Part shown: in pieces, positions 14,788 to 60,064 of the stretch
How the letters are laid out: every line of letters begins with the position of its first letter
Position numbering within the stretch: position 1 is the stretch's first letter
NCBI GenBank assembly: GCA_963402885.1
Contig: OY727100.1
Coordinates: 496,001-560,000, forward strand
Direction: 5' to 3'
Length of the DNA: 64,000 nucleotides
Source: Antedon bifida
Lineage: Eukaryota > Echinodermata > Crinoidea > Comatulida > Antedonidae
Made by a program: the position numbers and the translations under genes
The notes under the pieces: model-generated
What the model was told of the DNA's origin: nothing
The model's database searches: none
The model's input: the letters and a program-made list of their open reading frames with translations, nothing else

Positions 14788-16464
14788 ATGGTTGAGAAAA
14801 TTATTCCTTTAACTATGTCAACATATTCATTTCAAAGGCCATTCTTAACTGGTGGATGTTGTTGTCTCGAAATTCGGACAGAAATCTGGAAAAATCGAAG
14901 GTTACATTTTTCAAACTTTCAGAAACTAATTTCAATATGTTTTATATTTTTGATAATAAACAGTCATTTTTTTGTGGTTGAAGCCAAGTGCGGTGGGTTT
15001 GGTAGAAGTATTTTAACATCTTCTGAGGGAGATATTTCAGATGGATTTGGAAGTTATTCCAGTAACCATCAATGTGAATGGCTTATAAAAGGTAATTTAT
15101 TTGGTAAAATTTATTTTTAACCAATAAAACATAATAAAAACAATTTGAATTTAAGACGGCGCACACCAAAAAACATTTAAAACAATTTATATCGCATAGA
15201 CCTAACATCAAAATAGAACAAAATTGCATTTTACAATGTATACAACTAAACTGACTGACAAAAGTATTGTATTTAGAGTTCGTCCTAAGTTTTTGCAATC
15301 ATTTTACTGTGACATTAAATTTATTTGAGTAATAATAGATTACAATACATGAAAAATGTTACAGTAGCGTCGTGTGATGTGTAAGTACTGTAGGCCTATA
15401 AAGTGTAGATAATAATGACTTGCTTTCTTTCTACAGCTCCCAATAACAACAGCAAGATTGTTCTTGAATTTAGTAGTTTTGAAACAGAGTGCAGTTATGA
15501 TTTTCTGTTTGTTTTTGATGGCGATTCACATTCAAGTCCACTCATTGCAAGTTTGAGTGGCAACTATATTCCTGACGTTGTTGTGGCTCGCTCGGGCAAG
15601 GTACGCTACAATTTGACCAGTTGGCTATCAGTGGTCTTATATTATTTGCAATAAGTTAATTATCAATGTAGTATTACTAATACAATTTGTAGATAATTAT
15701 TATTAAAATAATAATTGTTTTTTGTTTATGCCATTTCATATTCAAAACTCTAGTACATTATATACATTCAAGTCTAGCTTAAAGACTCATTTATTCACCA
15801 TGTCTTATCCAGAAAACTTGTAGCGTATTTGTAATGTTTGTAGTCTTTAAGATTTGTAACTTTTTTTCATATTGTTTGTTGTCAGTAGCGCAGTGAGCGT
15901 CTTTTTAGACGGATGCTTGCGCTTTACAAATTTCCATTATTATTATTATTATTATGTTAAATAATAATGGAAATAAGTAAATTGAAACATACACATTTGC
16001 ATACTAAGCCATTCAGTGATATACTATACTATACTATTATTTTACAATGGGCATAAAGGAAGGTACAGTATTCCAAATGACGGACAAGATTTCTCAACGA
16101 TCCTGTTAATATCCAGTTTTTTTGTTTTTTTTCAATTAGCCTATATAGGTAGTACAATATTAATGATAACTGTACATTCAGTATGTAATCATTCCTTTCT
16201 TATTAAATATTTATTCTAATCATTATCTACATTGTAATTTAATTTTAGATGTTAGTGATACTGTACAGTGACACCAATTATATATTGCGAGGCTTCCAAG
16301 CTAATTATCGCATTCAAGATTGCGTAATGGATTGCTCGAATCACGGTACATGCGTGAATAACATGTGCGCATGTGACAATGGACACACGGGGGAGTGGTG
16401 CCAACAGGTAGAATGTCCTAATTCATGTAATGCTCCAAATGGACACTGTCATTTCACCAGTAAT
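14788..16464 (+). other. megf8: MEGF8 exons 1-3: signal segment, CUB1, first EGFs
   Basis: Exons 14788-15091, 15437-15600 and 16249-16464 encode residues 1-228. A hydrophobic segment at 47-64 (ISICFIFLII) acts as signal or anchor; mature protein probably begins near Lys67. CUB1 runs from Cys68 to about 178 and contains ECSYDFLFVFDGDS, the conserved CUB acidic strand. EGF-like cysteines follow (CVNNMCACDNGHTGEWC). Confidence 0.9.
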
Positions 16465-28400: not shown

Positions 28401-31400
28401 GGGAATCATGTTCAGAAGAACTGAGCACAAGCAATGCCGTCTGGACCATGCTGTTCAACCCAGATATACACAATCACTCTGTTGCTGATTCGTTTCCATT
28501 AGGGGTCATGGGTCACACTATGGTGCTGAGAGATGATTCAATGGTTGTTTTTGGAGGCTACTCATTTCAAACAAATTCTAATGTTAACTCACTGTGGCAG
28601 TAAGTTCTAATTTGTTTTTCCTTTTTAAATTTCATTATTTTGTTATTGGTATATAGATTTTGCTTGTTTCTGGTAAATATCTTCTCTAACCAGAGTTTCA
28701 TTCATACAGTAGTAATACCTGCATGGTGAGTGTGGTCCTTTTTCCAAACATAACAGCTCATTTTGTGGCCTGATTACATTGTTTGTTTTCATTTTGTTAA
28801 GGTACAACCCAACAACCTCAAGTTGGAGTAAGGTGGTTAGTAATCAGGCCAGTAAGCCTCCTGCTAGGCATTTCCATGCTGCAGCCTACACGTCTGATAT
28901 CCTCTACATCTCAGGAGGCATTTCTGACTCTGGTGTGTTAAACGATTTCTGGGCCTACGGTTTTAAACAAAACAGCTGGACAGAACTTGAGGTCAGTTCA
29001 TTCACTTCTTTAAATGTTATATATTCATCTGATTAATTTCAAACTTTGAAAATACTACACATTATAATATACATTATTTATATACTAAGTCATTTTATTA
29101 TCATTTTCCAATAGGCTGTCAAACCCCTGGCTGGCCATACTTTGACTGTTGTAGATGATGAGCTGTTTTTGATAGGAGGATATTCCCCTGAAAATGGCTT
29201 TCTTGAGAAGTTGTTTGTATTTGATATACCAACAGATGAATGGGAAGAAAGAACAATGCAAGGCTCACCACCCACAGGTAAGAAACCATAGCATTGGGTA
29301 GGGTTAAGAATTAAGATAATTTAGAAAAACAAAAACTATGATAGGATTACATTTTCCGAATTTGTTTTTCAATAATTATTTTTTAAACACATTATTGTTT
29401 ATATATTGTATACATTTTTAGTAAAGTTTTCTTTTAATATATAAATTGAAAATGTTTACATTTCGATTTAGGTTTATATGGCCACTCAGCTGTGTATCAT
29501 GAACAGACAGGCGCCCTCTATGTTTTTGGAGGATATGGATTTCACGTTGATCTAGTGTACGCTTCAAATCAGTTGTACACCCTCCGTCCTAGTGAAGGTG
29601 TCTGGAGCATTTTACCAATAGAGTCAAATAGAGCTGTAAGATTCTAAAGCTATTTTTATAAATAGTTTTTCTATTATTAACAGGTTGAATAGATCATGTA
29701 CTATTCCATCATGAAATTTTCGCACCATTCAACTCCTTAACATTCATTATTTGTATACTATTGCATCATGAGGGTTCTTAAAGAAGATCTATCATTAAGT
29801 ATATTCTTCTGGTGATAGCAGAGTTTAACCTCAAGTTCCATTTACTGACAATTTGCTTGACCTTACCTGTATAATACTAATCAAATTTACAATGTTTGTT
29901 TCAGCCATTCTCACATGTATTTCACTCAGCTGTTAGCACGAATGACTATATGCTGGTAATTGGAGGTGCCACTGAGGAACATAATGTTTCTAGTACATTA
30001 ATGGCTTACTCCTATCAATGCAATGTTTGGTATGATCTGGGAATTAACAGTAAGTTAGTTTCTTAGTTTCAAACTTAATATTTGAGCACAAACTTAAGTA
30101 CTTAAGTAAGAAATGTTTCTCAATAGTAGTATACTCCAAAAGACAAACAGCATCAAGTTTTCACCATCACACAACAAACATACAGGTTTTGTTGTTTTTT
30201 TCCCCTGATATTTTCATTATTCTCATACCTTAGATTTTACTACTGGTCGTTCACCTCTACCAGCATCATCAGTAGCCGCTGTGGCATTTAATGTAAATAC
30301 AACGTATGTCTACGGTGGTTATAATGGCGTGACAAGTGGCGCCCTCTATAGATTGCATATACCGGATGACCTGTGTGCTATTTATGATGGCAATACAGAT
30401 GAATGTGTTAAAGTCCCAGGATGTTCTGCCTGTGTTACTAATACAACATCTAAATGTGCTTCTACAGGCAGGATAAGGTATTTTATTTTGTATATTGATT
30501 GATCACTTTCAGAATAATAATTCCATATATGCAAAAAACAATAAAAAAAAACAGAAAATCACACTAAAATAGGATTTTCTCCCATTTAGTGAAGAGATCA
30601 TAACAAATAGTTTGTAGTAGATCTAACTTTATATAATAGTATATGTCCAATTGTAATGCATTTTATGGAGTAATTCCAAGGCCTACTTTAAATTTAAGAT
30701 CCACTATTATGAAATGCATAGCTTTGAGGACAACATATCTGTACTGTATAAGTTATTATAAACAATATTGTGTTTGTAGTTGTTCTGGGACCTTTGATGA
30801 ACTTGTACCGGGTGAGGTGACGTGTTACGACCGTATTGTTAATCGTGTTTGTGAGCACGCTCAGACGTGTAGTGAATGTCTAGCCGTCTTTCCTTCATTT
30901 CCCAATGGACAACAGGTTTGCATTTTCAAATTGTTATAAGTCATGCAACCTTGCTACTGAATGACTTCAATACTGTGCTTGTATCTTTTTAGTTTGTTGA
31001 TTTGTTGATGTAGTGTACAAAAACAAACTTTTCCAATGTAGTGTTTTATATTTGACAATAAATGCTGTAGAAGCAGTGCTTTCATTCAAGATAATAATAA
31101 ACACATACATCCTTTTTAGCCTTGTAGATGGTGCAGGAACTGCACAGAAACAACGTGTGTGAAAAGGGATAAGAAATGTCCTCTTGTACGGCACTGTGGT
31201 CTGAGCAAGCCTAGTGAAGAGATTGTAATATCAACGGCTAGATGTACAATATGTGAAGCATCTAAGTGTGAAACATGTTTGTCAAAGGGATGTATGTGGA
31301 CAAGACAGTATGAACAAACAGGTGAGAGTTACATACATACATTGCATTATGTAAAGCTATCAAACTAGTTTGACAAAAATAGTGTGATGTGCCCTAATAT

Positions 31401-34400
31401 GGTAGTGATATGACATCGTCATGTCAATATATGGTCACATCACAATTTTTTTGTCACTTTTAAAGTTTGATAGTGTAGACAGAGCTTAAGATAAATATGT
31501 ATATTTTCTTTGTATGAATATATATTCAATTTCATTCTGAATAATGAACAAATCCTTTTCTGCAGGAGTTTTAACATTCCAGTTGTATACAGAACCTACT
31601 GTAGAATGGAGCTGCTTTCTAGAATCTCTTAAGGACTATGTTCCTGCCAGCTATGTCTTCCAAAGTTCCCCACCTGATGCATGCCCCACTAGGTGTCATC
31701 AACACAGTGACTGTAACACATGCTTAGATAGTACTGGTGCAGACGGAGGCTGGAAGGAGTGTTACTGGAGTAGGTGGTTGAATGAGGTAAGTCAGACTTA
31801 TTTTAGACGGACTTTATTATCAAATAATTTCAAACCATGTACTATATTTTACTATGTTTGACCATGAATAAATGAAATGAATTATTTCATCCTTCACAGG
31901 AAATTTACATGGTCGTACTTCAAGTTAATGATATTGAAAACTTAACTAACAATCTAAGTAAATGCATCAAAGAAATTATCTCTAGAAATTGTCATGATAA
32001 CATCATCGTAAACATAAAAGTACTGTAATCTTTGTTTGAATGTTACTGTTCACTATAAAAGCCTTTAGGGCATAAAGCCTTTAGGAACAGACCATTACAG
32101 TATGACTACATCTTGTTTATTCAATTACAGTGTTTGTCTCCAAGTTATCTGCTGCTTCGTTGTGCAACAGGAGAGTGTGGTACCATCATATCTGACCAAT
32201 CAGCTTATTGCCCAACCCCTTGCTACATGCTAACCATCTGTACTGACTGCATCAGTACTCCAGGCTGTGGTTGGTGTTCTGTTGATAATGCTAATGGTAT
32301 TGGTGTTTGTATGGAAGGGGGACTGTCCAGCCCTACTGGTGGTGTATGCCAAGGGAACGTGGTCAGTTTGTCTTCTGGAGAAATGCCTGGTAACTAATTC
32401 TTTATTTATTGGGTTTCTTTCTGTGCTTGAATATAATGATGAGGGGCTGTATTCACCCATCATGAATATTTCACTCAAGCCAGTAAATAATTAAGGTGTT
32501 CTCTTCAGTGATATTTGACTTAAGTGTGAATGGTGAATACGTCCACAGCACCATACACAGAACCTTAAGTTGTTATTCCCAGATACTTAGTTTACACCAC
32601 TTAATATTCATTTGTTTGTACTGTATATCTTTGACTGTAACAGCATATTCTCTCTTCTTAGCATACATGGCAAACTACACAGACATCAGCAGTGTAAGCT
32701 GGTCTTTCCTGGCATGCCCTCCTGAAAATGAGTGTCTGAATGGTCATAACATTTGTACAGACACACAGCTATGTAATGACACACAAGAGGGTTACTTATG
32801 TACCTGTAGATATGGATATGAGGCTGAAAGGTATTACTATTAAACACAATTCATTACCGATTTTATTCACAAACACAGAAAGTGTTATCACACATGCTCA
32901 ACCCCGGGGACTCCCAACAGCAAACATAATCACTTTCCATGGGACTTTCCAGCTGGTAGTGACAGAATAATTACAAAAATAATTTGAAATATATAAGTAA
33001 AGTGAATTGCTGAAAACCAATGAAACACTTACTATTACAGACTGTAACCTTAATTAGAATTAGTACTTTATACACTGTGTACAGTACAAGAAATTAAATG
33101 TTGTCCTTCTTTCCTTGTATTTTAGCATTTTAAGACAACTATCTTCCTTTCTTGTGTACAGTGTAAGTAATGACATTTGCCTTTGAATCTAACTATGAAT
33201 ATCAATTTAAATATATGTGTTTTCTTTTAATCTTCTATTAGCCCTGATAGCTGTGTTCCAGTGTGTAGCCCAGAATGTGTCCATGGCACATGTATAAATC
33301 CTGACGTTTGTGACTGTTTATTTGGTTATGTTGGTGTGGACTGTAGCTTGGCTTGTAATTGCAATGGACACAGTCATTGCTCTGGTGATGACGAGGCTGG
33401 ATTGAATGACTGTATACACTGTTCTGATAACACAATGGTATGTCACCATTTCTATAGTTTTTTTATCCATACCATTAATCTAAATAATGATCTTAAAGTG
33501 AAGAAATCACTAAAGCTCTGTCTACACTATCAAACGAGTTTGACAAAAAAGTATGATGTGCCCAAATATGGTGGTATGACATCATCATGTCCATATACTA
33601 TATGTGCACATCACATATTTTTGTCACATAAAGTTTGATAGTGTAAACAAGGCGTAAGACTTGATTACTTTTTTTCATTTCAGGGAAACAATTGTGAATA
33701 TTGCCAAGCATTGTTTGTAGGAGATCCGCGTGATGGCGGGACATGCACAAACTGCACCGTGTATTGCCATGGCAACAGTGATATATGTTTAACATCACAA
33801 GAATATAATTCAACAGTTACTGCTGGATTGAGTCTAACTCCAGAATTGGTAAGTCAAAGGTCATACATATAACTGTCTGTCATTCTGTAAAACAATTAGT
33901 TAAAGCACTGATTTGATATATTTACTGGATGGAAAGCTTTAAAATAAGATTTCTACCTATCTACCTTGATCTACCTTGATATTAAGACTTCTTAAGCTTT
34001 AAGCTTGTTTGTCTCTCTGAATACCTCCATCAGTGCGATTATACGGCGAGAACTGCTGTGGATGACAGTGCCAATGTTTCTCCAATTGGTTTTTGAATTT
34101 GTTTAATGTCTCTTCCACTAGGACATGACTGGGTAGGGTGGGTGTGGTGTTTCTAAAGTTCGACCAGACTACCTCCTTCTAGCATATTCATGAATGTTGG
34201 ATATTATATTATTTTCACTGTTGGAATTGTTGCTTTTAACCTAGGTGCAGGAAACGTTCACAAATGGCCCTGTGGAGAATGCATTATGTGTCAATTGCTC
34301 AGGGTACAGCAGCGGACAAAGATGTGAAACATGTATTGATGAATACTTTAAACAAAATGGAATATGCAGGCAGTATGTTTTATTTATTTTAAAATCCATT

Positions 34401-43382: not shown

Positions 43383-43647
43383 CTAGGCGCAGGCCTACAT
43401 AAACATTTAAATAAGTTATCGAAGATGTATTGCTTAATTTCTCTCCAATAATTTGCACTTATCTTTATATTTTTACTTTCGCAAACCCATTGATGATTGA
43501 CTTGTGACATTACCATGGTTACTAAAACCAAGTAAACACACCCATTATGCAAGAAAGGGCGACACTGGTTGGTTCGTTGCATTTGAGCTGGAATCACGAA
43601 AGCACGCCCCCTGGGCTAAACTAATATTTGATGTAGAATAAAACATT

Positions 43648-43657
43648 TATATTTAAA
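43648..43657 (+). promoter_or_regulatory. Candidate TATA box of the peptide gene
   Basis: TATATTTAAA lies about 130 bases upstream of the ATG at 43790, in a locally GC-richer context (GGGATGCGTCGCCGGAG follows). In AT-rich DNA such a match can arise by chance. Confidence 0.35.
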
Positions 43658-43789
43658 GCAGGGATGCGTCGCCGGAGTTAGAGGGTGGAACTGCATTTGA
43701 TAGTTACTTGAGAAATAAAGCAGAGATAACATAGTTGTGATTAAGGTTCGCGGCGGCTCAGTGTAGTGTTGTTTAACAATACAACAATA

Positions 43790-46700
43790 ATGCTTGTAAT
43801 ATCACCAACCAAATTAGGACTTGTTTTAGTTCTTAGTTTGCTGCTAACACATATAGGTAAGTTTGTTCTTTGTTATTCTTTATCTTTTTTATTCTGAAAT
43901 TATTGTTGATGTTGTTTAAGTTTAACATCTCCTGGACGAAGTTCAATGACAATGTTTAATTTGATTAAGTACAATGTTGAAAATAGTTGTTTTTTTGCCG
44001 ATGGAACCAGTGTAGCTTTCATTTAAAAATTACCAGAACTTAGCATTATTAATTAACTTAAATGCTTTAAGTACTTGAGTACATCAACAACTTGTCTTTT
44101 TAATTTACAAAGACAGCTCGGTTAAATGTTTATCTATTAAAATGTAGCGCTAAGAAAACATTGCAAGAAGGTGTTGTTAGCGGGTGTCATTCAAAAGTGT
44201 CTGTCCCATGGCTTTATTAATTCGTTGATAGAAATGTCAACAACGCGAAATTAATATAACGAGATATTACTGTAGTATCTGAAAGGCACGCATAGTACAT
44301 AAATACAGCGTAAGAAGACAGTTACTAACAAACTGATCCGCCTAGTGTGGATCATCTAATGAGGAAATAATACAGCATTAGGACCTATCAATTAGAAATG
44401 GTTAAATCAGAGAATGTCACTTCAAAGAATGTCACTTCAGAAAATGTCACTTCCCTAAAGGTGACAATCTGCTCACATGACATTTAAATAAGACAAGATT
44501 CATGACTACTGTGAGAAAAAGTAAAAATAGAAAAAAATTCTAGCAGATAATAAAATCGCACCAACCGAGATTCGAACTGCTTAAAAATCGGTCGAACCTG
44601 CATTAACTCTGAACATTCTGCCAAGAGTGTGCAAACCGAGATTCGCTAAGATTAAACAATCGGTCGAACCTACATTAACTCGGAACATTCTGTCAAGAGT
44701 GTGCAAACTGAGATTCGCTAAGATTAAACAATCGGTCGAACCTACATTAACTCGGAACATTCTGTCAAGAGTGTGCAAACTGAGATTCGCTAAGATTAAA
44801 CAATCGGTCGAACCTACATTAACTCGGAACATTCTGTCAAGAGTGTGCAAACTGAGATTCGCTAAGATTAAACAATCGGTCGAACCTACATTAACTCGGA
44901 ACATTCTGCCAAGAGTGTGCAAACTGAGATTCGCTAAGATTAAACAATCGGTCGAACCTACATTAACTCGGAACATTCTGCCAAGAGTGTGCAAACTGAG
45001 ATTCGCTAAGATTAAACAATCGGTCGAACCTACATTAACTCGGAACATTCTGCCAAGAGTGTGCAAATTGAGATTGTTGAACTCGTTCGAAAAAAAGTTC
45101 TAGCGAGTGAAACAAATCGGTCCAACCATAAAGTTATATACAGGTAGTTATCTAAATATAGTCCAACCGAGATTCATACTCTTCAATCTTCTCAGAATGA
45201 AGAAAATGTCGACCCAACCAAGATTGAATTTCTAACTCGGAAAGGTCTGCTAAGATTGAAAAAGTAAACACGACTTAATCGAGATTCGAACAAGAAACGT
45301 TCTGCTTGATAAAACATGTAAAACGTCATTAACACATAATAAATGTAAACAAGACCGTCTTAAAACAGGTGTGGCAGTGTATTGATTAAGGAATGGAGGC
45401 AAGTCTCCATTACAAACCCACTTGGAGCCTACGTATTGATTGCGATCATAGTGTAATTTAATTATTACTATTATTGATTTCGTTAATAATGTAATGAAAT
45501 AATGACTAAATCATCTGTAAGTTGAACAGAACGATTTGACAGGGTTAACAAATGTAGGTTCATCAAACTAGCCGTTGATATTTCATTTCTTAAGCTCTGT
45601 CTATCAAACTCACAAAAAAGTGTGATGTGCCAAAATATGGTAGTGATATGCCCAAATATGGTATTGATATCACATCATCATGTCCATATATGGGCACATC
45701 ATATTTGTTTGTCACATAAAGTTTGATAGTGTAGACAGAACTTCATACTTCATATTTTTCACGTCGCCTAGCAAAACTCTGGAACTCCAGAGTTTTGCTA
45801 GGCGACGTGAAAGTGTAATATTATATTCTGTATTTATCAATTATTTCATGTTGTTGTATTTTTGTTTTTATTTGAGTGTCTAATACAAATATTTTATATC
45901 CAAAAAAGAATGGTTTAAAACGATTTTTGCAGACTTCAAAATATGTCATGAATATTTTACCTTGTCGTCACATACGTTTAGGAGGAAATGTCTATGCATC
46001 TAATCGAAAATCAATTTACTTTAGTGGTTTTAAGCTATTGTTTCTCTTCGTAGTTTTGTTACAATCTATTATCATTCTCCGTCGTCTACTTCATTTTATG
46101 TGATTTATGCCGCTTCATCTGGGAATGACAGACTCTATCAATCTGCTCAAATCTTAAGAGAATCATTACGTCATATACATTATGTGCTTGGTTCTCAGAT
46201 AGATATGAATTGCGCATATCATTTTAAACATGCAGCAAATGCAGATGTTTAAATGTGTTTAGTATAATAGGTCCCTAATTTATCCGGTTAAAACAAATAA
46301 AGTTTTCCTGTTAGTTGATATGAATAGATTATAATTTCGACTTGCATTATGTTTTTCATACCTATTTTGTCTTCGATCTCTTTTGTTTGTGATTTAATCA
46401 TTAATGAATTAGTTTAGTAATTTCTCCGTCCTTTAAATTTACAACAGCTTTCGTTGAATCTAAGTAAGTAAAAAGTATATATTTCTGAGCATGCGCAGAA
46501 TGATTATATACTCAGCAGCTGCGTAGACGAGTGGCGCGCCGTCTCCTTGACGCCTTTTAGACGCGTGTGTACCTTTAGCTTTGTTAAGGTTTTGAGTAGG
46601 AGAGGGGGACTAAGCAGCGTGGGGTTTAATCATCAACCATTACTTCACAACAGATAAAAAAAATCAACCATTACTTCATTATCCGTGCCACCACCGATAA

Positions 46701-49700
46701 CATAGCGGATTCTAATTACTGCAGTAAGTATTATAAATTACTTTTAGTAGACCAATTCAGTCATATTGAACATTTTAGTTTTATCACGTTTTAATTCAAA
46801 TTTCTATATTATTGAAATTATAACAGATTATTTGTTTTTATGTTTAATTAAATTTATAGAGTATATTAAATATTATTGTATAAAGCGGATTCATCAGGTA
46901 ATCGTATTTCAATCTCTCGTGCATACCAACACTATCAATTTGTCCCATTTAAAGATTAAACTATCAATTTGAAACTTAGCATCACATTGAAGCACCATTA
47001 AGTGTCTACTTTGGCAGAGAATAAATTATCCATAGTCCCGAAAAATAAGTTGAATAACCACTAGACAACAAATCCATCTTAACGAACATTGTCCAAATTA
47101 AAGAACATACTTAAAAATACGAACAGTTGTCTTAACTCCCACACGAAGGATAAGCAGGAACGGACATTTTAAATCCTTAGAAAGAGGAATCAAAATGACG
47201 GGGGACAGGTTGGGAGCGTTCTAAAACGTTATTTCCACGTAAATATGAGCCTAGGTATAATTCGGAATACATTAAATCCTATTCATATTCGTCGTCTTAA
47301 AGCTTGGTTTCCCACTAGAACGTAACGCAGGGACGTAAACGCATAGCGAGTTGACCAATGACAAAGTGACATATAATCCATTGCTTGTGATTGCTCAATT
47401 TACTTGCGTTGCGCTTACAGCGAAAATAATCGTAAATTTTTAATTTAAAATGGTTGAAAACGGGAATTTTGTTTGTCGTTTGACTTTTTCTAGGCATAAG
47501 CTTTTTTTAAACTGAATCTGTAATCTGGTAGTAAGTAAAGAGAAATATTCGTCAATTTCCAATTTAAAATAGTTCAATAACCAAACAAACCAAATTTTAC
47601 AAACAATGTCAAGAAGAGTAAATAAGCTAATTTTTAAATACATAAATACAATTATACGCGCGCGTAAACACCTCATTACAGCCAATTAAATGGTTTTTAT
47701 TTTGAACGCCATTCTAAAAATAAACATGATTTCCGACAATTTATTTAAAATTTTAGAATAGTCCTATTAGGTAATAATAAGAACACGACCATGAGCAAAA
47801 CAAGTCATTTCGACCAATGATGACGTCATCAATAAAATGCCTTAAAACACGTATTGAAAGTGGGCACGTTGAAGTGATTGATCGTTCCAGCAAAGTAAAG
47901 ACTCAGAGTTGAATAGATTGTAGCTTTCTTTCTACCTTAGTAAGTGAAATGTCCACTATGGAAATGATTGATGCAAAAATATGACTTTCATGTCACGTGA
48001 TGATGTTCAAGATTACGTTCAGAAGCGATCAATCGAATCTCCACTTTTGCGCTTGTTGTTGATTTAACCTTGTATTTTAATCCATGCGTGTAATGTTTTT
48101 ACCAAAAGTTCATTGTGGTGTCGTCGTCGGCAAATCTTGCGATGTGTAGACGCACAGCGTACTTGAGCTGAAACTCGGCAAGATATAGATAATTGGAAAG
48201 GTGTATTTAGCACTTACATACAATCCATCGCATTCATCTTTCAGCTCATCAATATTTCTATTTATCTAAAGATTCGTACAGAAATCCTGTTGCTTTATGT
48301 TCAGACTATGTAATGTTATTCAATTGTTATTCGATATACGCTATACACTATTATATACTTTACATAGTTATGATTCCAATCACACTAAAGACGAAAACGA
48401 TAAGTTATTAGATCAGTTTGTCTGTTATCCACGACCATGCTCTTTCTTTTTTTAGATACCACTAAGGGGTTCGACCAATCACAATCGATGGATTTATTCG
48501 ACTGTCGCTTGTCATTTGTTAACTCGCTTGCGTTGCGCGTACGTCCTTGCGTTGCATCTCTACTACGCGTAACTGTAGCTAACGTTTTCCCTCGGTGGCT
48601 TATGACTTTCTTTTGCGTAGGCCTACTGTACTTATGATAGAAGGGAACATTTTTCTAGGGCCATGATTTTTTTTATCTTGCTGGTATAGTTTTGTTCTTT
48701 GCATTTTTCTTGTATATTGTTTAGTTTGACCAAATAAATAAGTAAATGGAGTAGTTAGTCTAGTTGTTACATCATTACTTATTACAATTATAAATTATAC
48801 TTTTTTGTTTATCTGAATTTTCTGTATCTGATGAGCCTTTCTTGTGTTCTTGTACAAACATCTTGATTGAACGTCAATATTTTGGAATAAACAGATTATT
48901 TTTCGACAACTTATTTTTCTTAAGATATAATTAAGCCTATTTATCTCAATTACCCCATAAGCAATGTCTAACAAAGTTTTTGGAATTGGAAAATGTACAT
49001 TTTTTTAAATGATACGTTTTAATGTCAACATAATTGATAATATCGTTGATGCAGACGGTTACCTTAAGCATAGCTGTTAATAGCTGTTTTTAATATTTAA
49101 AATTAAATACGGTAAATTAATGCCATAAGGTGTTTCTTTGGATAAGCATTTCTATTTTTAGTATTTACACCAAAAAAGACTTGTAATCGTGATTACACTT
49201 TGATTGTCAGATTTGGAACAATAAAACTAAAATAGTTTGTGGGAGGATAGCCTACTGCGCTCAAACATGAAAGCGAATATTCAACACATTTCCCATCAAT
49301 GGTTAAGTAAATATAATTTGAACTTGAAAACAGAAATCTTACAAATGGATGACAAACAATTAGATATAGCTATTATACTTACTAGCCATTATCACGAGTA
49401 CTGCCATACCTCATTCCATCAGCATTAGCTGTTTCTGGTGAAACTCATAGCTATAGTGTCAATGGAATCAAAGCAACCGGTGATTAAAAAGAGAATCCGT
49501 AGTAAACAGAAATGCAATTAATTTGAACCTGTATGACCTAGACAAGTAACAGGATTAACCGGAACCAATTCTCATAAGACCGCCATCATCATTTTAATAA
49601 TACAAATAAAATGAGAAGTTAAAGAGACTATTTCGATATTTATTTGAAAACAGAGGTTACTGTCTTTCACGCATCACTTGATGATGAATAGTTGATAGAA

Positions 49701-52700
49701 AAAGTATAATGACACTTAAAAAATATTCCTTTTTAATTTCCACATTAATTATCAACGGTTATCTAAAAAAGATTTCGAACTCAGTTATTTTTTCATATAA
49801 AATTATATTAAAGCAGATGTAGACATAAACAGTTAGTAGAAATTATTTTCTTTTTAGAATGGAAAAGGGAAGACATTATAAAGTAGTTCTCTTGCAACTT
49901 AAGAGATGAAAGGTAATGTCTCGAATCTGTAATGTGGGATTGTGGTTACCTGAACAAGGCCATGAAAATATTAATAGGACTAGAAATTACCCATAATACC
50001 TTTCGTTAGGTATCTTGGCAAACCCCAATGCGGTAAACGTGACAACTATTTTAAGTTGCAATCTATTTGTTCATTCACGATTATAGATAGAACATCGAAT
50101 ACTAATTATACTTACGTGGATTTAATTGGCGGTACATCATTTTAATGTACATATTTGACCTAAATAAATCTTTGTCATCTTATGTTTTAAGTAACCTTAG
50201 TTACTTCTTTCTACGGATATTAACTCTCGACGACTCGAGTGGTCGACGCTAAAAAAAACCCACAGTATTTGAAAGAATAGTGGTTGCTAATATTAGGTAT
50301 GACGTAGTAATTAACCAATGGCATTGGATGTCTTCGGCATTGCAGAATTAAGATTTACCAAAATTAGCATCAACTTTTAAATTGTCTAAAGCAATTGCAA
50401 TATACGTCTTTTACCGTACATTCTGTCAGTAATATGCCATGGTGATATCACAGAAAGTCGACGCGACGCGCACCCTACAAAATGCATGTCATTTTCATCA
50501 GCTTTTGAACGCTTCATTTCTCAACATGGTTTCAGTTAGCCATTTGATAACTATATTCAAATTTGCATTAACGATATAACACATAAAGTGATAAATGTTT
50601 TTAAAATTAAATTTATGTATTATAAAACAGATAAAATATTGATTTTCTATACAGTATCTTCCACTTTTATTCATCTTTTCTTCTTTGGATTTTGTCTTGA
50701 TGATACGTGATGTGTGTAAGCTACAATGTAGAAGGATGCTTAGATCTAGGTCTAGTTCATTAACTTACTTAGAGTGTGAGCTCTTGTAATTAATTCTGTT
50801 TGCACATTTTGAATAGGTTAATTGGTGGCTTAATGTGCAGTTAGGTGTTCACTTTGTATTACACACACTTGTCTATTCCGTTAACTTAGCACCAGACAAG
50901 CATAAAAATACAAATGTGTATCAATTTATACACACTCCCCCTCAAAACCTGCCACATTGCCACAAATTACTGCTCTAAACTACTACTCATTATAAGTCCA
51001 GTTTCGGAAATATTCACTGTTTTTAGGATCCTATAGAATTTTGTTTGTCATGAGATATATAGCAATGGTGTTGCATGATTACTTTTATTTTTATAACTCA
51101 AGTTTCCACGACGCTTTTCCTTTTCAATTTATCAATATCTTAGAAAATCCTGTATATAAATAACTACGGTTAAAGTAAATGATAAATTAAGTAACAAATG
51201 TAAGTGTATGTAAGCAACCAACAATCTTGTATTTAAGCATACATTACTTTACTACACAATTAAATGTAATTGATTCGACTGCTAACCGACATCAAACCTA
51301 TTTGCTATTGCTGATGCCAAATATGTATGTGATACGACTTTAAATGATAAATGTATATTGAAATTGTTCTCCTTTCGCATTGAAAACTATTTATAACTTC
51401 TCATGTCTGTTTGACTGAGTTTCTTGAAAAAAATCGGTAGCATAATAAGAGGAACAAGCAATTCCATTTATCCTTATACGGTATAAATGTTAACATCTCG
51501 CACAACGTTGGCTCTCTGTACGCAAACTCAGCAGCGACGGCGCGCAACGCAAGCGAGTTGACCAATGACAAGCGACAATTCGACAAATCCATCGTGTGTG
51601 TCTGGAACAGCCCATGGGCTTAATCGAGACTATAAATAAAACAATTAGTAAAATAGTAATAATGAAGCATGATGAATAGTTCATAGATAGATTCATCACG
51701 TGATAGTGTCTGAATTAATCAAATCAGCAAACAGATATTTTAAAATATAATAATTTTGATTGTAGAAATCAAAACCTACAATCAGGATACTTCATATAAA
51801 CAAATCTTATCACGTTAACCTACTAACAATATTTAATTAAGTTTTGAAATACATAATAATATGCATAGATCAATGCCTATCTCATTATCTTATAAGTATG
51901 GCGTCACAGATGTAGCTTTTGTAGTAGATGTTCACCCTTTACGAGGACCATCGCGTGACAGTAATATATTACGTTTCACGTCATGAAGCGTTCGTTTTCA
52001 CGTACTTCTTGAAACACACTCGCCAAGACTAATCACAACTTACTGTCGATCCGTAAGGATCTACTCTTATTGTTTAAATTTGGAAAAAACAATATAATAT
52101 TTGATTTGTGGCGAACGCCTAACTTTGACCATTTCACTTCGGCAGTCGCTGTAGTACAGTTAAGCTGTCTACACTATCAAACTTTATGTGACAAAAACAA
52201 TATGATGTGACCATGGACACGATGATGTCATATCACTACCATATTTAAACATATTACTACCGTATTTGGACACATCACACTTTTGTCGCCAGACTAGTTT
52301 GATAGTGTAGACAGAACTTAGAAGTATACTTTTTCGAGATGTTTAAAAAAACTATTGAACGCATCACGGGTGACAGTAACAAAAAAAATGTTAGAATCTG
52401 CACCAATTGTACTACAAAGGTGTAAAAGTTCTGAAATGAAGAAGTTCAATGCATTGTGGTTATTGTATCCTTCAAAATGAACTTTGAACTTGTTAAATAC
52501 ACACAAATACATACTGATGAATACACAAACTGTTACTGAAGTGAAGTCCCAATACAGGCTGTATTTCAATTCTGTGATTTATGTATAATACATATTCGTA
52601 ATGGATTTAAAAATCAAAATTTTGTTTTAAAATGCATTGATAACATTTGTAGCGTTTTTTCTATTCAATTCTTATAATATTATGCAATATTATTTACGGC

Positions 52701-55700
52701 TGATGCATTTAGAAAATTAATGTGAATAATGTGGTACTATATAATAAATTAAAACAGACATTCGATTATTTATAAGGCATTGTTTCAAATGAATATTGGT
52801 CGTGATTTCTAAAATAATAAAAAACGTGTTCTAAATTAAGTAATAGTTAATGATGTCGGTAGTAAACCTGCTAAGGAAACAATCACAACTGATACATTTG
52901 TTGTTAAGTTTCGTCAATAATATAATAGTATGTGATTTTGTAAAAAAAAAGAAGAAAGAAACGCCAGCAGCATTTGTTCTATTTACCATTACTTGGTTGC
53001 CACCGTATGGACGTAAGCGCAACGCAAGTAATTTGACCAATCACGTTGGATTATCCGAACTGTCGCTTGTAATTGCGCGTATGTCCCTGCGTTTACACAC
53101 AGCGTCAATCGGTATTTATATTTTTTTTTAGCTGCTGCAAGGCACTAACAACGAGTTTAAAGTTTTCTTTTCTTGTCCAAGAATATGTTTGCTTTAATTT
53201 GCAATCAACCATTTTTCCCAAATGATGTGTGGGTATTTTATGGCAATTATTCATATTATATCATCTTTGTTATCTAATTTATAATATATTAATATTTTTG
53301 AATTAGAAATTAATAAATTTAATTGAATTGAAAAAGAAAAAGATAAAATGCCTTAAGATATTTGATATACGGTATTAAAAAGACAAACATCCGGGCTATC
53401 ATCGCTGACAACACAGATCACTGTAATCTAATTCGTAAATTTGATTCTAAATGATCAGACTATTATTTCGTATTGAAAAAAACTACTACGCTTCAAGCAA
53501 AACTAATATTGTATCAAATATTTACGTAATATGTTTTTCTAATACAAAATAATGAATGATTCCTTTTTGTTAAATAAACAAGTGTTTGAAACTAGATACT
53601 TGAGATTGTATTGCAAGTGACAATGTGTTCTTTCCTTTGTGTTGCTGCAATTTTATATTACTTCAGAAATGTAATTCCTTTGATACATTATAACATTTCC
53701 TATAGTAATTAGTTTTACTATCATTGCTTCTCAATAAATCATATAAAAGGGTCAGACAATATTATGAGTTTTTAAAGGAATTCGATACAAATGTATCGTT
53801 ATCATTAAAATAAAAATCATTCATACAATATTTTGAAAAGAATATTCATGTAATGCGCGTACATATCACACTAAATATGCGCGTACATATCACACTAAAT
53901 ATGCGCGTACATATCACACTAAATATGCGCGTACATATCACACTAAATATGCGCGTATGTATCACAACGATAAAATATGTGCGTGCATATCACAATGATA
54001 AAATATGCGCGTGCAACAAAATGTTAAAATATTCAACATTTAAAGTTGTTTTGTATCTTCATCCGGAAGTTATGACCATTTACCAGCGAACCCCAACGTC
54101 AAAAATTCATAATTAATCTTGTTTTTAATCCAAAAAGAACATTGCAACGAAAATTATTATGACTAAAATGTAGTGACTATCAGGCCCAATTACTTACTAG
54201 CTTTATGCTGACGTTTATGTGGCCCTAAATGCAATTTTGATGGCAAAACATCAACTTGATAAATACATTTTTAAACCATGTATTAAAAGATTTGTTTTCA
54301 TAAGATGATAGTGTGTTATTTGATAGTTATTATATAAGTGTGTTTAAGGCTAAGACCTTGTGAATACAATGTGCGTCAACTAGTGCTTCATCTCTTCATT
54401 CTCTTTCAAAGAAAAACCTCTACACATATTTGTATAATAATTTGTTTATTGGGAAATAAATTTATAATTTCACAATCTCTTCTTTTTTTGTCATCAAATT
54501 ATAATTATTTCATGGTAATTTTGTTTCAATTTTAACCGAATTTTCTAATCTGTGTTTAATATCATTTTATCTTGTTGTATGTATTCCACTTTTCATGATT
54601 TGTATTACTTTTGTATATTAGTATTTTTATAATCTTTAATCAACCTTTCTTCTTCAATTGTATTGACATTTTATACCATTTTATCTCTAAAATAACTCTA
54701 TCTTGTTATTGAGGATCATTTTTGTATTTATATTTCTCTCCTCGTTTCCTTGACTTATCCGTCGCGTTTCCCTTTCTCATTATCTTCAGTATGATGTATG
54801 AGCCATTCAAAAGAATAGAATATGTGCAATTGTTTGCTAACGATCGAATGAATTGTAGGTTTCATTAAGAAAGTCAGAGACTATACTATGTCGGAAATAT
54901 ACAGGATTGAGGGATGGTCAAAACCGTTTCAGATTTTCAACACTGTACATTGCATGCAATTTATTTAATCTAAACTTTAAAAGATACTAATTTGTATTAT
55001 CATTTATTTAAGATTTATCACTTTGTATTATTTAATGATTCTTCTAAGGTACAAAACAAAATTGTAAGATTTTGACAATAAAGTAGACTTGTATCTTGAT
55101 ACTCGAAATATAGTATACTATTTACAATTAAAGTATCAACATCATTAGAAAAATCATAAAAACACATCAGAAAAGAGAACGACTTATCCATTGTCCCGTA
55201 CCCGTGTGAACACAGAATATTCCTTCATCGAAATGTTTTCAATTATTGTTCATATCTATCTTCTTACAAATACTGGGTCCAATTAGGAGCATTTCATTGA
55301 AACTTGTTAATTGATTCGATACACATCTTATTCCTTTTTATACCGTCCACATCGGTCGACAAAACTTCAGTTCAATTATCTCTGTAATGGACACTACGGG
55401 GGTTTAATGGTAATGATTAAGATTGCTACGTGAATTCATAATTATGAATTATTCTAACCATTACCGTACCGTCCACCTTAACTTTTAATTTTATCCTTTG
55501 GCAATGTATTTATATTAATTACAACTTTGTGTTAAGTAAAACGTATGTTGTAGTTAATTTACTGTTAAAATCTTTAATTTACTTTATGTTTTTGTAAACT
55601 TTTAAACCATCGTGAGAGACGGGATAATGCCACAAAATAGCCCGTGGCTGAAATAGGGAATTATTGACATTTAAATTTATTTAATACATTTATTTGATGT

Positions 55701-58700
55701 TTCTCTGAAATGTAGATTAAAATATAAATTTCATTATTTTGTTTATGACGATATGATGTCTGGTGTTATTATCTCGCGCACGTGGAATAAATTCGTAAAA
55801 TGTTTCAGTATTGTTCGGAACGTGACTAGATAGCGGTTTTACTGACCAATCACCACACTCGTATGGCTACTCAAACTTATCCAAAGATATAGCATAAATT
55901 AACGACATTTATGGTTAGGCCTAAAGCTTGGTTTCCACTAGGACGTAACGCAAGGACGTAAGAAAGTTGACCAATGACAATCGATGGATTATTTTGAACT
56001 ATCAGTGTGATTGGTCAACTCGCTTGCGTTGCTTCCGTCCTTGCGTTGTGTCCTAATGGGAACCAAGCTTTATAGAACAGAACAAGGAAAGAAAGATTAA
56101 AACAACAGTATTTACTTAACTAAACTTGATTAACTTGATCGTATATTATTCTTTGCTTTAAGTTATGATATTAGACCTATGCATTAGCAATGTTTTCTTC
56201 CTTTTTTTAGAATCTGCACAACTGGCCTGTTCTCGTTGTAATTCGAGAGCTTGTGTTTGTAGGTGTTTGAACAGAATTGCGTCATTAGACCCAACAATGT
56301 TACGTAAGTTTATCTTTCAGTGACGTATCAAGAGGGTTATGGCCTCTTCAGGGAGACCGCTCTTGTTGATTGTCGCAACTTTATCACCCATGTATGTTTT
56401 GATTTCTGTAAAAATAAACCATTATGAATTGTAACGATTGCACTGCGCAATAAAGCGGAAAGACAGTGCGCATGTGGACAAACCAATCGACGCTAAATCG
56501 TTGAAGTTGAGTTAATCATGACGTCACAGATTAATGTGTGCGCGTGTCTGTCACGCTCTATTGCTTCGTGTCAATCGAAATGAGATTTAGTTTAAGTTTG
56601 GTTCCCAGTTGGATGCAACAACAACAAAACAACGTAGGTGTGAGGCAGGTGAGTTGACCAATTGAAAGCGACAGTTCGGATGATCCATCTCTCCGTGTTG
56701 ATCAAATGACTTGCTCTTATGTGTTGCGTCTGACCAAGTGGGAACCAAGCCTTAGAAAGGAATGCCGAAATTGCCAAATCTCAAAATCAAATTTACTATA
56801 AAGCTCTGTCTACACTATCAAACTTTATGTGACAACAAAATGTAATGTGTCCATATATGTCATATCACTACCATATTTGGACATATCAATACCATGTTTG
56901 GGCACATCACACTTTTTTGTCAAACTAGTTTGATGGTGTAAACAGAGCTTAAGAATAAAAGCTCTATGAATTTACTATTGGACAATGCGAGTGCAAACGT
57001 TAATGATCTTCGTAGTGTACCATCTTCTATGTATTGTTTATCATTTCCGCATTTCATTTACTTACTAATTTCGTTTTTCTTTCTTTTTTAGCAAATTTTT
57101 GTAGAAAACGATCGTTTCCTGAAAGTGTCCAGGTAAAGTTTCATCTTTAATTGTGGTTTTTAATTTCAAAGGAAAAACACAAACAATACAATGTTGTAAT
57201 TATACCATTCCAACGATCACTACAATACAATGTTGTAATTATACCATTGCAACGATCACTACAACAAAACATGATGAAGCACCACTCACATAATTATGAT
57301 AACATTGATATTAAATGATAATGATGATGATGACGATTGTAAATGATGATGACGATGATAAATGATGATAATGATGATGATGATAAATGATGACGATGAT
57401 GATAAATGATGATGACGATGATGATAAATGATGATGACGATGATGTATGATGATAATGAAGATGATGATGATGATTATGATGGTGCTGATGATGACGATG
57501 AAGATAAATATTTTACTCATACGCTCCTAGACACGCAACACTTTTCTAATAATTCTTGATAAAAACAATAATGGCCAAAGTAATGGCTATAGAAACTCGA
57601 CTTGTGGTTATTCACCGTCATCAAATGCTTTCTAATAATGTTCTTGAAACTATTTTGCTAATATAGGTATAATTAATTTCAACCTTATTTTTTAGGGTCA
57701 CCTCGAGCAAGAACCCACGCAAACTGAAAGTTCATCAGATCTATCAAGGTGTAAAAAGGCAAGTTTTTATGTTCAAAATGAATGTTAGAGTCGAGTTAAC
57801 AATGTTAGTATGACATGTTGTCAAATATCAATACTGCGTACCATATTTGATACTTCTTAACAATAATTGGATCCTATATAATTGTTTTGTTAGATGGGCT
57901 GTAAAGTCGATTTTCACGCGAGTTCATTGCTTTAGGGCCTGTTCACACTGGGGAAAATACGTCGTTCTGAGGTCACGAACAGTGCTTGAAATTTTCTAGC
58001 CAATCGGTGTTAATGTAACTTGTCTGACGCCTTATCATGTTTTTATTTTAAAACGTACGTAAGACATGTCAAAAAGTAGAATGATCCGTTTCATTTGGGA
58101 CATTAGCAAATTAAAATTTACAGAGAATGACAAAAATAATATTTTGATGGTTCAGTTATATTTCTACGTTTGTAAAATTGTTTTAAGTGTACATATACCA
58201 CAGAAAGGCACATAACTTTTACATAAGAATTAAAGTATTTGTACGCGCGCGTGAAAATAATGATACGAGTTTTGCACGCATGCGTATGAATTCAACCGCG
58301 TTAATAGTGTACGCGCGCGTTAACTTTGAGGCTCTTCTTTCTAGAAAGAAAAAGAAACTCACACAAATCGTAATAAAAATAATATACAGTGATAGATACC
58401 ATTATTTCATCATAAAATAAAAATTCAAAGAAATTTGATAGAAATTGAAATAAAATCAAAGATGTCCATATAAACGTCCGTTTTAGCATTATGAAATATA
58501 GCATGTAATCCATCGTTGACATCTGGAAATACGTTGTAGGAATAATATTTAGTTCAAACCAGAGTGGTTTTTGACAAGAACATCATCTTTCTGCTCGGAC
58601 ATTCATTTCTAGAGCAGTATCAATGTTTAAAGATAACATTGATGGTTATACAATCTGCCTTGTCTGACGTTTTCTATGAAAATAAAAATGCTGTATAATT

Positions 58701-60003
58701 TTACCAACTCCGTCAAAGTTGAACCCACAAATATATACATTGACGGAATAACAGGTAAAAATGTAATATTAATAATTAATTATTCTAAATCCAATATGAA
58801 AGTTTATATTATTGTTTAATATTGAATTAAAATGGACATGCTCTCCGTAAAGACGCAACTCAGGGACTTAAGCGCAACGTAAGTGATTTGACCAATCACA
58901 AGCGATGGATTATTCTAACAGTCGTTTGTGATTGGTCAACTCGCTTCCGTTGTGTCTACGTCCTTGCATTGCGTCACTAGTGGGAACCAAGCTTAATAGA
59001 CAAAAACATATATATTTCTTAATGGCTTTTTATAGCTTATTGATTTCTATTTTTCCTGATATATCATATTTCTGTTAAGCCGCTTTTAAAATCTACAGTG
59101 TTAGTGTACCGTGTCATTTATTTTCATAATATGTCATATTTGTATATCATTCCTGATACTTACTGTGATATATTGTTTTTATTGCTGGCTAATGTCAAAT
59201 TGAAACTTAAGATAACCAATATAATTCCGTATAACTGAATTGAAAACATACATGTAGTTTTTAATTTTTTTCAAAGAACTCTTAAAATGATGGCGATAAT
59301 ATGTCTCGCAAATCACATGTTTTTTAAGATGTATTGTCGCTCTAAAAGTATTTACCTGAAAAATGTAATTTAAAGCAAAGATACTTCAATTATCTGTCAG
59401 ACAATGGTTTTTGGTTCAAATTAAACGTTTCTTTTGTCTTTTTATAGGCCTAAGTGAAATAATTTTTTTAACTTTATTAAAACTGAAAAATTGCCTAATT
59501 AAAGTCTGATTTTATTAATCTTCATTTTTCATGTTTTTGTGAGACAATACATCTTTAAGCTTTGTTTTCCTTTTAATCCACCTTTGTCTCTGAAAACAAG
59601 AGATAACGATGTTCATCCTTTCCAACCATCATTCCATACAAACACACTTGTTTTTGGTTATGATGTTTGAATGTTGGTGTCACATACAGTATTATGTGAC
59701 GCCTTTACCTAAACACTAACATAATACAGACGTTACATGTGATACGGTATTGAGACTTGTTGATTGTGTGTTTTGTTTATGAGGTGTTACGATTAATTAC
59801 ACGTGATGATCGTGTTTTGTGCGCGCGCGTCATCACGTGGTGTATAGTTGAACTTGTGGTATCGATTTGGTTGTATTCTTCAGCGATTAATAAAATTAAT
59901 TTTGTTTTAATTATCTTTTCAGCTTATGAGCCTGATGCAAATTCTGTTAACGTCGAGCGCCAAGGAAAGGAGAATTCTTCTGAACACATGCACGGACTAT
60001 TAA
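43790..60003 (+). CDS. Secreted cysteine-rich peptide precursor, family unknown
   Basis: Five exons: 43790-43856, 56211-56303, 57092-57132, 57696-57758 and 59923-60003. Donors are GTAAGT, GTAAGT, GTAAAG and GCAAGT (a GC-AG intron); all acceptors have strong pyrimidine tracts. The product is 114 aa. Residues 1-22 are a signal peptide (hydrophobic LGLVLVLSLLL), with cleavage likely near Ala25 leaving an N-terminal Gln. A basic site RKR (58-60) follows a 32-residue segment with six cysteines: ACSRCNSRACVCRC at 28-41 and Cys57. The spacing is C-x2-C-x4-C-x-C-x-C-x15-C. An acidic linker (68-83) then leads to a basic tail with Cys86 and Cys111, KK and RR. I recognise no family; the spacing CVxxC recalls endothelin but the rest does not fit. 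Using GTGTAA at 57749 as donor instead ends the protein at about 85 aa, keeping the six-Cys core. AATAAA follows 56 bases after the stop. Confidence 0.72.
44575..45075. repeat. 72-bp satellite, about seven units
   Basis: The unit includes ACTGAGATTCGCTAAGATTA, AACAATCGGTCGAACCTACA and TTAACTCGGAACATTCTG. The period of 72 is divisible by three, so both strands stay open across the array (24-residue repeats), but no codon logic suggests a gene. On the minus strand each unit has TAGGTTCGACC, a pol III B-box-like motif, and TTAGCGAATCTC. Confidence 0.95.
45592..45743. mobile_element. Family A TIR element
   Basis: TAAGCTCTGTCTATCAAACT at the left (shortened) and GATAGTGTAGACAGAACTT at the right. 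The interior repeats GCCAAAATATGGTAGTGATA and GCCCAAATATGGTATTGATA. Confidence 0.82.
45757..45812. repeat. Perfect 27-bp palindrome
   Basis: Arms at 45757-45783 and 45786-45812 are exact inverted repeats (containing TCACGTCGCCTAGCAAAACT) separated by two bases. It sits 13 bases from the end of a family A element. Confidence 0.95.
46490..46723 (+). promoter_or_regulatory. Possible alternative promoter and untranslated first exon
   Basis: GAGCATGCGCAGAATG (NRF1-like GCATGCGC) and a GC-rich GTGGCGCGCCGTCTCC patch precede a stretch ending in TTACTGCA|GTAAGTAT, an excellent donor. No long frame is present. It could feed the exon at 56211, but no acceptor pairing can be shown. Confidence 0.25.
47300..47420. 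mobile_element. Family B element, right end lost
   Basis: AAGCTTGGTTTCCCACTAGA, GAGTTGACCAATGACAAAGT, TTGCTTGTGATTGCTCAATT and CTTGCGTTGCGCTTAC are present; the right terminal repeat is missing. Confidence 0.75.
48458..48570. mobile_element. Family B element, partial
   Basis: TTCGACCAATCACAATCGAT, CGACTGTCGCTTGTCATTTG and CTCGCTTGCGTTGCGC mark the core; the ends are degraded. Confidence 0.7.
51503..51622. mobile_element. Family B element, partial
   Basis: GCGCAACGCAAGCGAGTTGA, CCAATGACAAGCGACAATTC and AATCCATCG are family B core pieces; the distal half is lost. Confidence 0.65.
52161..52320. mobile_element. Family A TIR element
   Basis: TAAGCTGTCTACACTATCAA and TTTGATAGTGTAGACAGAAC bound the copy. 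The interior has CACTACCATATTTAAACATA. Confidence 0.85.
52991..53108. mobile_element. Family B element, diverged
   Basis: ACTTGGTTGCCACCGTATGG, TAATTTGACCAATCACG and GAACTGTCGCTTGTAATTGC. The right terminus is altered. Confidence 0.7.
53853..54013. repeat. 24-bp tandem repeat
   Basis: ATGCGCGTACATATCACACT followed by AAAT occurs four times exactly, then in diverged units (GCGCGTATGTATCACAACG, GTGCGTGCATATCACAATG). The period is a multiple of three, so the apparent MRVHITLN protein repeat is an artefact. Confidence 0.93.
55923..56072. mobile_element. Family B element, complete
   Basis: AAAGCTTGGTTTCCACTAGG at the left is mirrored by CCTAATGGGAACCAAGCTTT at the right. The core has AGTTGACCAATGACAATCGA and GTGTGATTGGTCAACTCGC. 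It lies about 140 bases before exon 2 of the peptide gene. Confidence 0.9.
56592..56754. mobile_element. Family B element, complete but diverged; peptide gene intron 2
   Basis: TAAGTTTGGTTCCCAGTTGG and CAAGTGGGAACCAAGCCTTA bound it. The core GTGAGTTGACCAATTGAAAG is recognisable. Confidence 0.85.
56801..56950. mobile_element. Family A TIR element, peptide gene intron 2
   Basis: AAGCTCTGTCTACACTATCA at the left is mirrored by TGATGGTGTAAACAGAGCTT at the right. It sits 47 bases after the family B copy, so two unrelated elements are side by side. Confidence 0.88.
57308..57512. repeat. GAT/GAC microsatellite, peptide gene intron 3
   Basis: Imperfect ATGATGATGACGATGATAA repeats extend over about 200 bases. 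Preceding it, ACAATACAATGTTGTAATTA is directly duplicated at about 57184 and 57221. Confidence 0.92.
58840..58996. mobile_element. Family B element, peptide gene intron 4
   Basis: GTGATTTGACCAATCACAAG, TCGTTTGTGATTGGTCAACT and CACTAGTGGGAACCAAGCTT. The left terminal repeat is degraded; the right one is intact. Confidence 0.85.
59323..59558. mobile_element. Family D TIR element, short copy
   Basis: TTAAGATGTATTGTCGC and GAGACAATACATCTTTAA form inverted ends like those of 23290-23846, with a shorter interior. It is in intron 4 of the peptide gene. Confidence 0.7.
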
Positions 60004-60058
60004 ACTTTTTCTTTTGCGTATTTAATAACAAAATATTTAAAAAAAACATTTAAAATGT

Positions 60059-60064
60059 AATAAA
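60059..60064 (+). terminator. Poly(A) signal of the peptide gene
   Basis: AATAAA begins 56 bases after the TAA at 60001-60003, which supports exon 5 as the last exon. Confidence 0.5.

Follow-up and report, generated by a model that had tools for sequence, protein, structure and literature searches.

Structure of the window gene

The window analysed here, a 64,000-nucleotide stretch of the Antedon bifida genome, corresponds to positions 496001-560000 of contig C13 within a 315.6-Mb assembly of 27 contigs. Five exons on its forward strand join into a single open frame of 345 nt, encoding 114 residues and a stop. Exon 1 (43790-43856) provides the start codon, encodes the greater part of the signal peptide and finishes in phase 1 at a GT donor; it recurs in two paralogous genes, A and B. 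Exon 2 (56211-56303), in phase 1 at both ends, contributes the end of the signal peptide and Cys1 to Cys5 of the mature peptide, while exon 3 (57092-57132) supplies Cys6, an Arg-Lys-Arg cleavage site and the start of the propeptide. The Arg-Lys-Arg codons were read from the sequence at 57103-57111, and the same position holds RKKR in both paralogues. Exon 4 (57696-57758) encodes an acidic linker, with a GC donor sequence directly behind it, while exon 5 (59923-60003) encodes a basic tail and the stop codon, in a reading frame that is not conserved. The resulting precursor is MLVISPTKLGLVLVLSLLLTHIESAQLACSRCNSRACVCRCLNRIASLDPTMLPNFC-RKR-SFPESVQGHLEQEPTQTESSSDLSRCKKLMSLMQILLTSSAKERRILLNTCTDY, and its peptide has the spacing C-x2-C-x4-C-x-C-x-C-x15-C. 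The initial annotation of this locus had proposed both the in-frame joining of five exons and this cysteine spacing; the first is borne out by the joined frame and by the presence of exons 1-4 in two paralogues, and the joined frame reproduces the second exactly.

An in-frame stop at 43742 lies upstream of the ATG, and the signal region contains a hydrophobic stretch with a Kyte-Doolittle mean of up to 3.0 over 10 residues. Introns fall within the signal-peptide region and between Cys5 and Cys6. Introns 1-3 all have GT-AG ends. Intron 4, with its donor at 57759, would be of the GC-AG type, and the GC donor sequence after exon 4 is common to all three genes. We take the window gene to be real; its five exons appear to encode a small secreted six-cysteine precursor.

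The weakest part of the gene model is intron 1, which spans 12.4 kb. Two observations support it: in A, no more than 533 bases separate the matching exon 1 from exon 2, and the promoter block before 43790 is common to all three genes. With so short a first intron in A, the length of intron 1 in the window gene seems to result from expansion at this locus.

Repeats are present in this part of the window. Intron 1 contains a tandem array at 44581-45075, with a 72-base unit in 6.9 copies and 98% matches. Among the inverted-repeat pairs listed (25 of 49), two families of short MITE-like elements have several copies in and around the window gene, the first at 45612-45747, 52165-52331 and 56797-56920, and the second at 47373, 48464, 55922, 58852, 61053, 62048 and other positions. 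On contig C15, a sequence around L008:6290-6430 resembles, by eye, a copy of the first family.

Two paralogues and a shared promoter block

A protein search of the A. bifida genome located the peptide exon at two further sites, both on contig C15 (E values of 1.4e-9 and 2.0e-4). The 18.9 kb read from this contig contains two genes in tandem, A and B, with exons 1-4 in the order of the window gene. Introns 1-3 agree in phase with those of the window gene, but the phase following exon 4 does not. These further copies, with their matching exon order and phases, make the window gene more than a chance assembly of open frames. Exon 1 was matched at L008:9005-9062 in A and at L009:4208-4265 in B, and the peptide of B is encoded at L009:5167-5265 and 5711-5754. 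The initial annotation had also considered that exons 2-4 might belong to a different, larger protein; this fails, as A has the promoter, exon 1 and exons 2-4 within about 1.8 kb.

Alignment of the upstream regions reveals a block of promoter sequence common to the window gene, A and B. Within it, a 23-mer (AAGTAAACACACCCATTATGCAA, 43530-43552, forward strand) is identical upstream of all three family genes. When up to 3 mismatches were allowed, this 23-mer was found at 3 places in the 315.6 Mb, all of them exact and one before each gene, while the reversed pattern gave 7 places at the same looseness. A putative TATA-like box (TTTATATTTAAAGCA, 43646-43660, forward strand) is likewise invariant in the three genes. 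Beside A, on the minus strand of L008:1-2400, lies what looks by eye like a long C2H2 zinc-finger array.

Conservation is lost towards the 3' end of the genes. In A, the frame is closed by a stop in exon 4, and another stop lies within its exon-5-matching sequence; a pairwise search of B found no match to exon 5. The two-cysteine tail described in the initial annotation is thus open in the window gene, but in only this one of the three genes, and the early stop in A together with the missing exon 5 match in B suggests that the tail is probably dispensable. The poly(A) signal reported immediately after the stop is also weak: the ATTAAA at 59999-60004 runs across the stop codon, and the aligned stretch of A reads ATTAAT, with an ATTAAA 30 bases further on. 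The AATAAA at 60059-60064 (forward strand) is the likelier candidate.

Anatomy of the predicted peptide

Positions that do not vary among the three genes are the six cysteines, the Arg and Lys-Arg at which the precursor would be cleaved, the core C-NSRACVCRC-x-NR, and some stretches of the signal peptide. Two gaps vary, Cys1-Cys2 with 2, 2 and 3 residues and Cys5-Cys6 with 15, 15 and 17 residues in the window gene, A and B, respectively, so both loops are longer in B. In each gene the peptide ends in Cys directly before the basic site, RKR in the window gene and RKKR in A and B, and lacks a C-terminal Gly. The peptides of the window gene and of A each have a net charge of +3, and that of B has +6. 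With an Ala-Gln start and three disulfides, the predicted mass of the window peptide is about 3.6 kDa (3622.63 Da); a pyroglutamate start would give 3534.57 Da.

Signal-peptide cleavage sites are judged by the (-3,-1) rule, which places the best site of A and B after Ala-Tyr-Ala. The aligned site in the window gene lies after Ile-Glu-Ser and leaves Ala-Gln. A cut after Glu-Ser-Ala would leave the N-terminal Gln that had been suggested to form pyroglutamate, but it places Glu at -3; with the aligned paralogues favouring Ala-Gln, a pyroglutamate start is doubtful, and the window peptide most likely begins with Ala-Gln-Leu-Ala-Cys.

Substitution pattern among the three copies

We then compared silent and amino-acid changes between the copies, over small numbers (15 to 32 codons per segment) and with p values uncorrected for the several segments and pairs. 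Between the window gene and A, the peptide and cleavage region are constrained: of 33 silent sites about 10 have changed, compared with 8 of 111 amino-acid sites (Fisher p = 0.0013). Taken by itself, the mature segment, which as counted stops just before Cys6, gives p = 0.034, and the core has 0 amino-acid changes in 37 sites. Constraint was not seen in the signal peptide of this pair (p = 0.76).

Copy B shows a different pattern. Relative to A, its peptide has 13 changes in 69 amino-acid sites and 4 in 21 silent sites, a dN/dS of 1.01 and thus close to the silent rate, while the segment from Cys6 onward is constrained (p = 0.015). Against the window gene, the dN/dS of the B peptide is 0.73. 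The fast change in B is not statistically distinct from silent change, either in the Cys5-Cys6 loop (p = 0.70) or in the mature segment (p = 1.0).

Comparison with orexins

The window peptide contains a C-x4-C-x-C-R element, which is known from vertebrate orexin. One reading of the family is a strongly diverged orexin-type neuropeptide, as ambulacrarian orexins are also described with six cysteines (PMC4772807) and with a C-x-C element. The only Pfam listing for the family points in the same direction, with Orexin (PF02072) listed for A (E 1.1, 9.6 bits) and for an approximate sequence of the window protein (E 2.7, 8.4 bits), but these scores lie far below the 22.6-bit cut-off, and Pfam lists nothing for the window protein itself or for B. 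One of the three family proteins is listed, below cut-off, and the orexin of the same genome is unlisted too, indicating that the Pfam model does not reach crinoids.

This own-genome orexin-type precursor gene (L012:502-810, minus strand, contig C1) was located with two orexin cDNA primers given for Antedon mediterranea (PMC9793003), which face each other across 462 bases of C1. The first primer matches C1 exactly and nowhere else at up to 2 mismatches. The second matches C1 with 1 mismatch, as well as C10 (1 mismatch) and C12 (2 mismatches), against 4 matches for its reversed control, and was counted only jointly with the first. The frame is uninterrupted from Met through KR, and the peptide has the spacing C-x-C-x7-C-x5-C-x-C-x6-C and a Gly-KR end. 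From Lys to Gly it comprises 37 residues, and a single Lys separates Cys1 from Cys2; AmOX of A. mediterranea is described in the same terms, as a 37-residue peptide with a Lys at this place (PMC9793003). The first two orexin cysteines are reported as adjacent in Eleutherozoa and one residue apart in Antedon (PMC9793003), whereas those of the window family are separated by two residues (window gene and A) or three (B).

AmOX, ArOX1/2 and AjOX1 resemble the window family in being secreted, in their six cysteines, in the basic site behind the peptide and in the C-x-C element. They differ in cysteine spacing and in their C-terminal Gly for amidation, whereas the window family has no Gly before the basic site. 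The own-genome orexin differs likewise in its spacing, and has no intron between the start codon and the cleavage site, where the window family has one between Cys5 and Cys6. Profile comparison with the own-genome orexin covered 9 columns with a probability of 3.6% (E 0.012, for a single pair). A genome search with AjOX1 found 0 matches and is uninformative, as it also missed the own-genome orexin. Identity with orexin is largely rejected on the spacing, amidation and introns of the own-genome orexin; judged by sequence, the window family is not a typical orexin, and descent from one by strong divergence is very unlikely.

Comparison with other families and structures

The initial annotation stated that the cysteine spacing fits no known family, and this is borne out among the families tested, as no informative match came from Pfam, the PDB or the fold search. 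A PDB sequence search with the window protein returned only a chance-level match to a zinc finger HIT protein (E 1.1), and the approximate window-protein sequence matched two exodeoxyribonuclease III chains, also at chance level (E 0.22 and 0.81). AlphaFold2 modelling of exon 2 alone (31 residues, the last from the intron, without an alignment) gave helices with a mean pLDDT of 84.1; as the values for the five models spread from 84.1 down to 54.7 and exon 2 lacks Cys6, we give them no weight. Foldseek found 0 matches to the exon-2 model in the PDB. A tachyplesin-like hairpin may also be considered, with C-x3-C-x4-C-x3-C readable in copy B, though the exon-2 model shows helices.

Strongylocins, antimicrobial peptides of sea urchins, are described as cationic six-cysteine peptides of 5.6-5.8 kDa, and EeStrongylocin 2 as having a prosegment between the signal and the mature peptide. 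The window family is alike in its six cysteines, its positive charge and its echinoderm origin. However, the window peptide directly follows the predicted signal without a prosegment and is smaller, at about 3.6 kDa. The six cysteines for strongylocin-type disulfides are present, with the bonds themselves predicted; identity with strongylocins is rejected on layout and size.

Ajnp14LP of the sea cucumber Apostichopus japonicus is described as a 51-residue precursor with a 31-residue six-cysteine peptide after the signal peptide (PMC6586643). Compared by description rather than by sequence, the two share a short precursor and a six-cysteine peptide right after the signal, but Ajnp14LP has no C-terminal propeptide. 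Predicted feather-star neuropeptide precursors resemble the window precursor in combining a signal peptide with a peptide bounded by basic sites. Of the 20 predicted crinoid precursors described, most have peptides with a C-terminal Gly for amidation, and none is presented in the text descriptions as a six-cysteine peptide with a free Cys end (PMC9793003). Literature searches on crinoid antimicrobial peptides and on Antedon cysteine-rich precursors returned no title on the window family among the matches listed.

Interpretation of the family

With middling confidence, we interpret the three genes found as a family encoding a convertase-processed, three-disulfide secreted peptide, most likely regulatory and of the hormone or neuropeptide type. 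In the proposed pathway, the signal peptide would be cleaved off in the ER, with the cut in the window copy most likely falling ahead of Ala-Gln-Leu-Ala-Cys, and the six cysteines would form three disulfides around the core C-NSRA-C-V-C-R-C-x-NR. Furin or a prohormone convertase would cleave after RK(K)R, and a carboxypeptidase would trim the basic residues to yield a cationic peptide of about 33 residues with a Cys end and no amide, leaving the remaining precursor part as a spare. The released peptide would then most likely act extracellularly as a regulatory peptide, and copy B may be evolving to recognise another target. The secreted, convertase-cut six-cysteine peptide proposed initially is supported by the paralogues and by the negative family searches, within the families tested. 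We regard such a three-disulfide family as the best reading; we did not find it described in the literature searched, and the genome search covered the A. bifida assembly.

Many neuropeptide precursors have a peptide straight after the signal, a basic site and a spare C-terminal part. In the window gene, a hydrophobic stretch and RKR likewise bound the peptide. Three points make a regulatory role somewhat likelier than an antimicrobial one: the small number of copies found, the unvarying core and a layout shared with neuropeptide precursors. Against a regulatory role stand the near-silent rate of the B peptide relative to A, its dN/dS against the window gene and its charge; the fast change and the charge of B would suit a defence peptide or relaxed constraint. 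The family also lacks the C-terminal Gly of most predicted crinoid neuropeptides described (PMC9793003). Because of how B behaves, and because an amide is lacking, the antimicrobial reading is not far behind.

In that antimicrobial reading, which we consider possible but on the unlikely side, the same processing would free a cationic disulfide-rich peptide acting on microbial membranes. The positive charge of all three peptides suits it, as do the tandem duplication of A and B, the broken or lost tail in both, and the rate and longer loops of the B peptide (C-x3-C, and two more residues between Cys5 and Cys6). Charge is not discriminating, however, since the own-genome orexin is also strongly basic, and the excess of amino-acid change in the Cys5-Cys6 loop of B is not significant. 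The core does not vary among the three genes, and the peptide is kept as well as its signal peptide, while many antimicrobial families show the reverse pattern, with a signal peptide better kept than the peptide. The size and prosegment of the strongylocins also speak against it. Insulin-type precursors have a comparable layout, with a basic site between chain-forming parts, and the open tail of the window gene, split from the first part by RKR, might accordingly be functional, its cysteines bonded to the first part in a two-chain or eight-cysteine product. We consider this improbable, as A stops in exon 4 before the tail and B is without an exon 5 match. Least probable is that the duplicate in the window is decaying or unexpressed, with A or B as the working gene: its intron 1 has grown and holds repeats, but its five exons are open, its splice sites and promoter block are intact, and its core is unchanged at the amino-acid level against A.

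Within the preferred regulatory reading, we tentatively suggest an echinoderm peptide-hormone family that has not been described before, with its own three-disulfide framework and a non-amidated Cys end, in which B changes its loops while the NSRACVCRC core is kept. If so, it would constitute a new ligand family. Among living echinoderms, crinoids form the sister group to all the rest, and to our knowledge few of their peptides have been investigated. Because the gene family is compact and its predicted mass is clear, it could be targeted directly by mass spectrometry and in situ studies. It also suggests that non-amidated, Cys-ending peptides could escape searches that favour Gly-Lys-Arg sites.

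Neighbourhood of the window gene

Upstream on the same strand, at 15409-33638, exon-like frames contain CUB, Kelch/attractin-type propeller and four PSI repeat matches, with an EGF-like match just below cut-off (Pfam scan of 10 of the 76 listed frames). By domain order, we take these frames to be probably MEGF8. An open frame at 6851-7807 has a C2H2 zinc-finger match in Pfam and presumably resembles Scratch/Snail-type factors. Elsewhere in the assembly, contig C27 carries a COX1 gene in which, at conserved positions, AAA stands for Asn and AGA/AGG for Ser, as in the echinoderm mitochondrial code. Together with the orexin primer sites on C1, this points to a feather star, either Antedon or a close relative. 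On the minus strand of the window, a frame at 10651-10971 matches the Pfam cytochrome b558 alpha subunit (PF05038) with an E value of 9e-7 and 29.1 bits, above the cut-off of 25.
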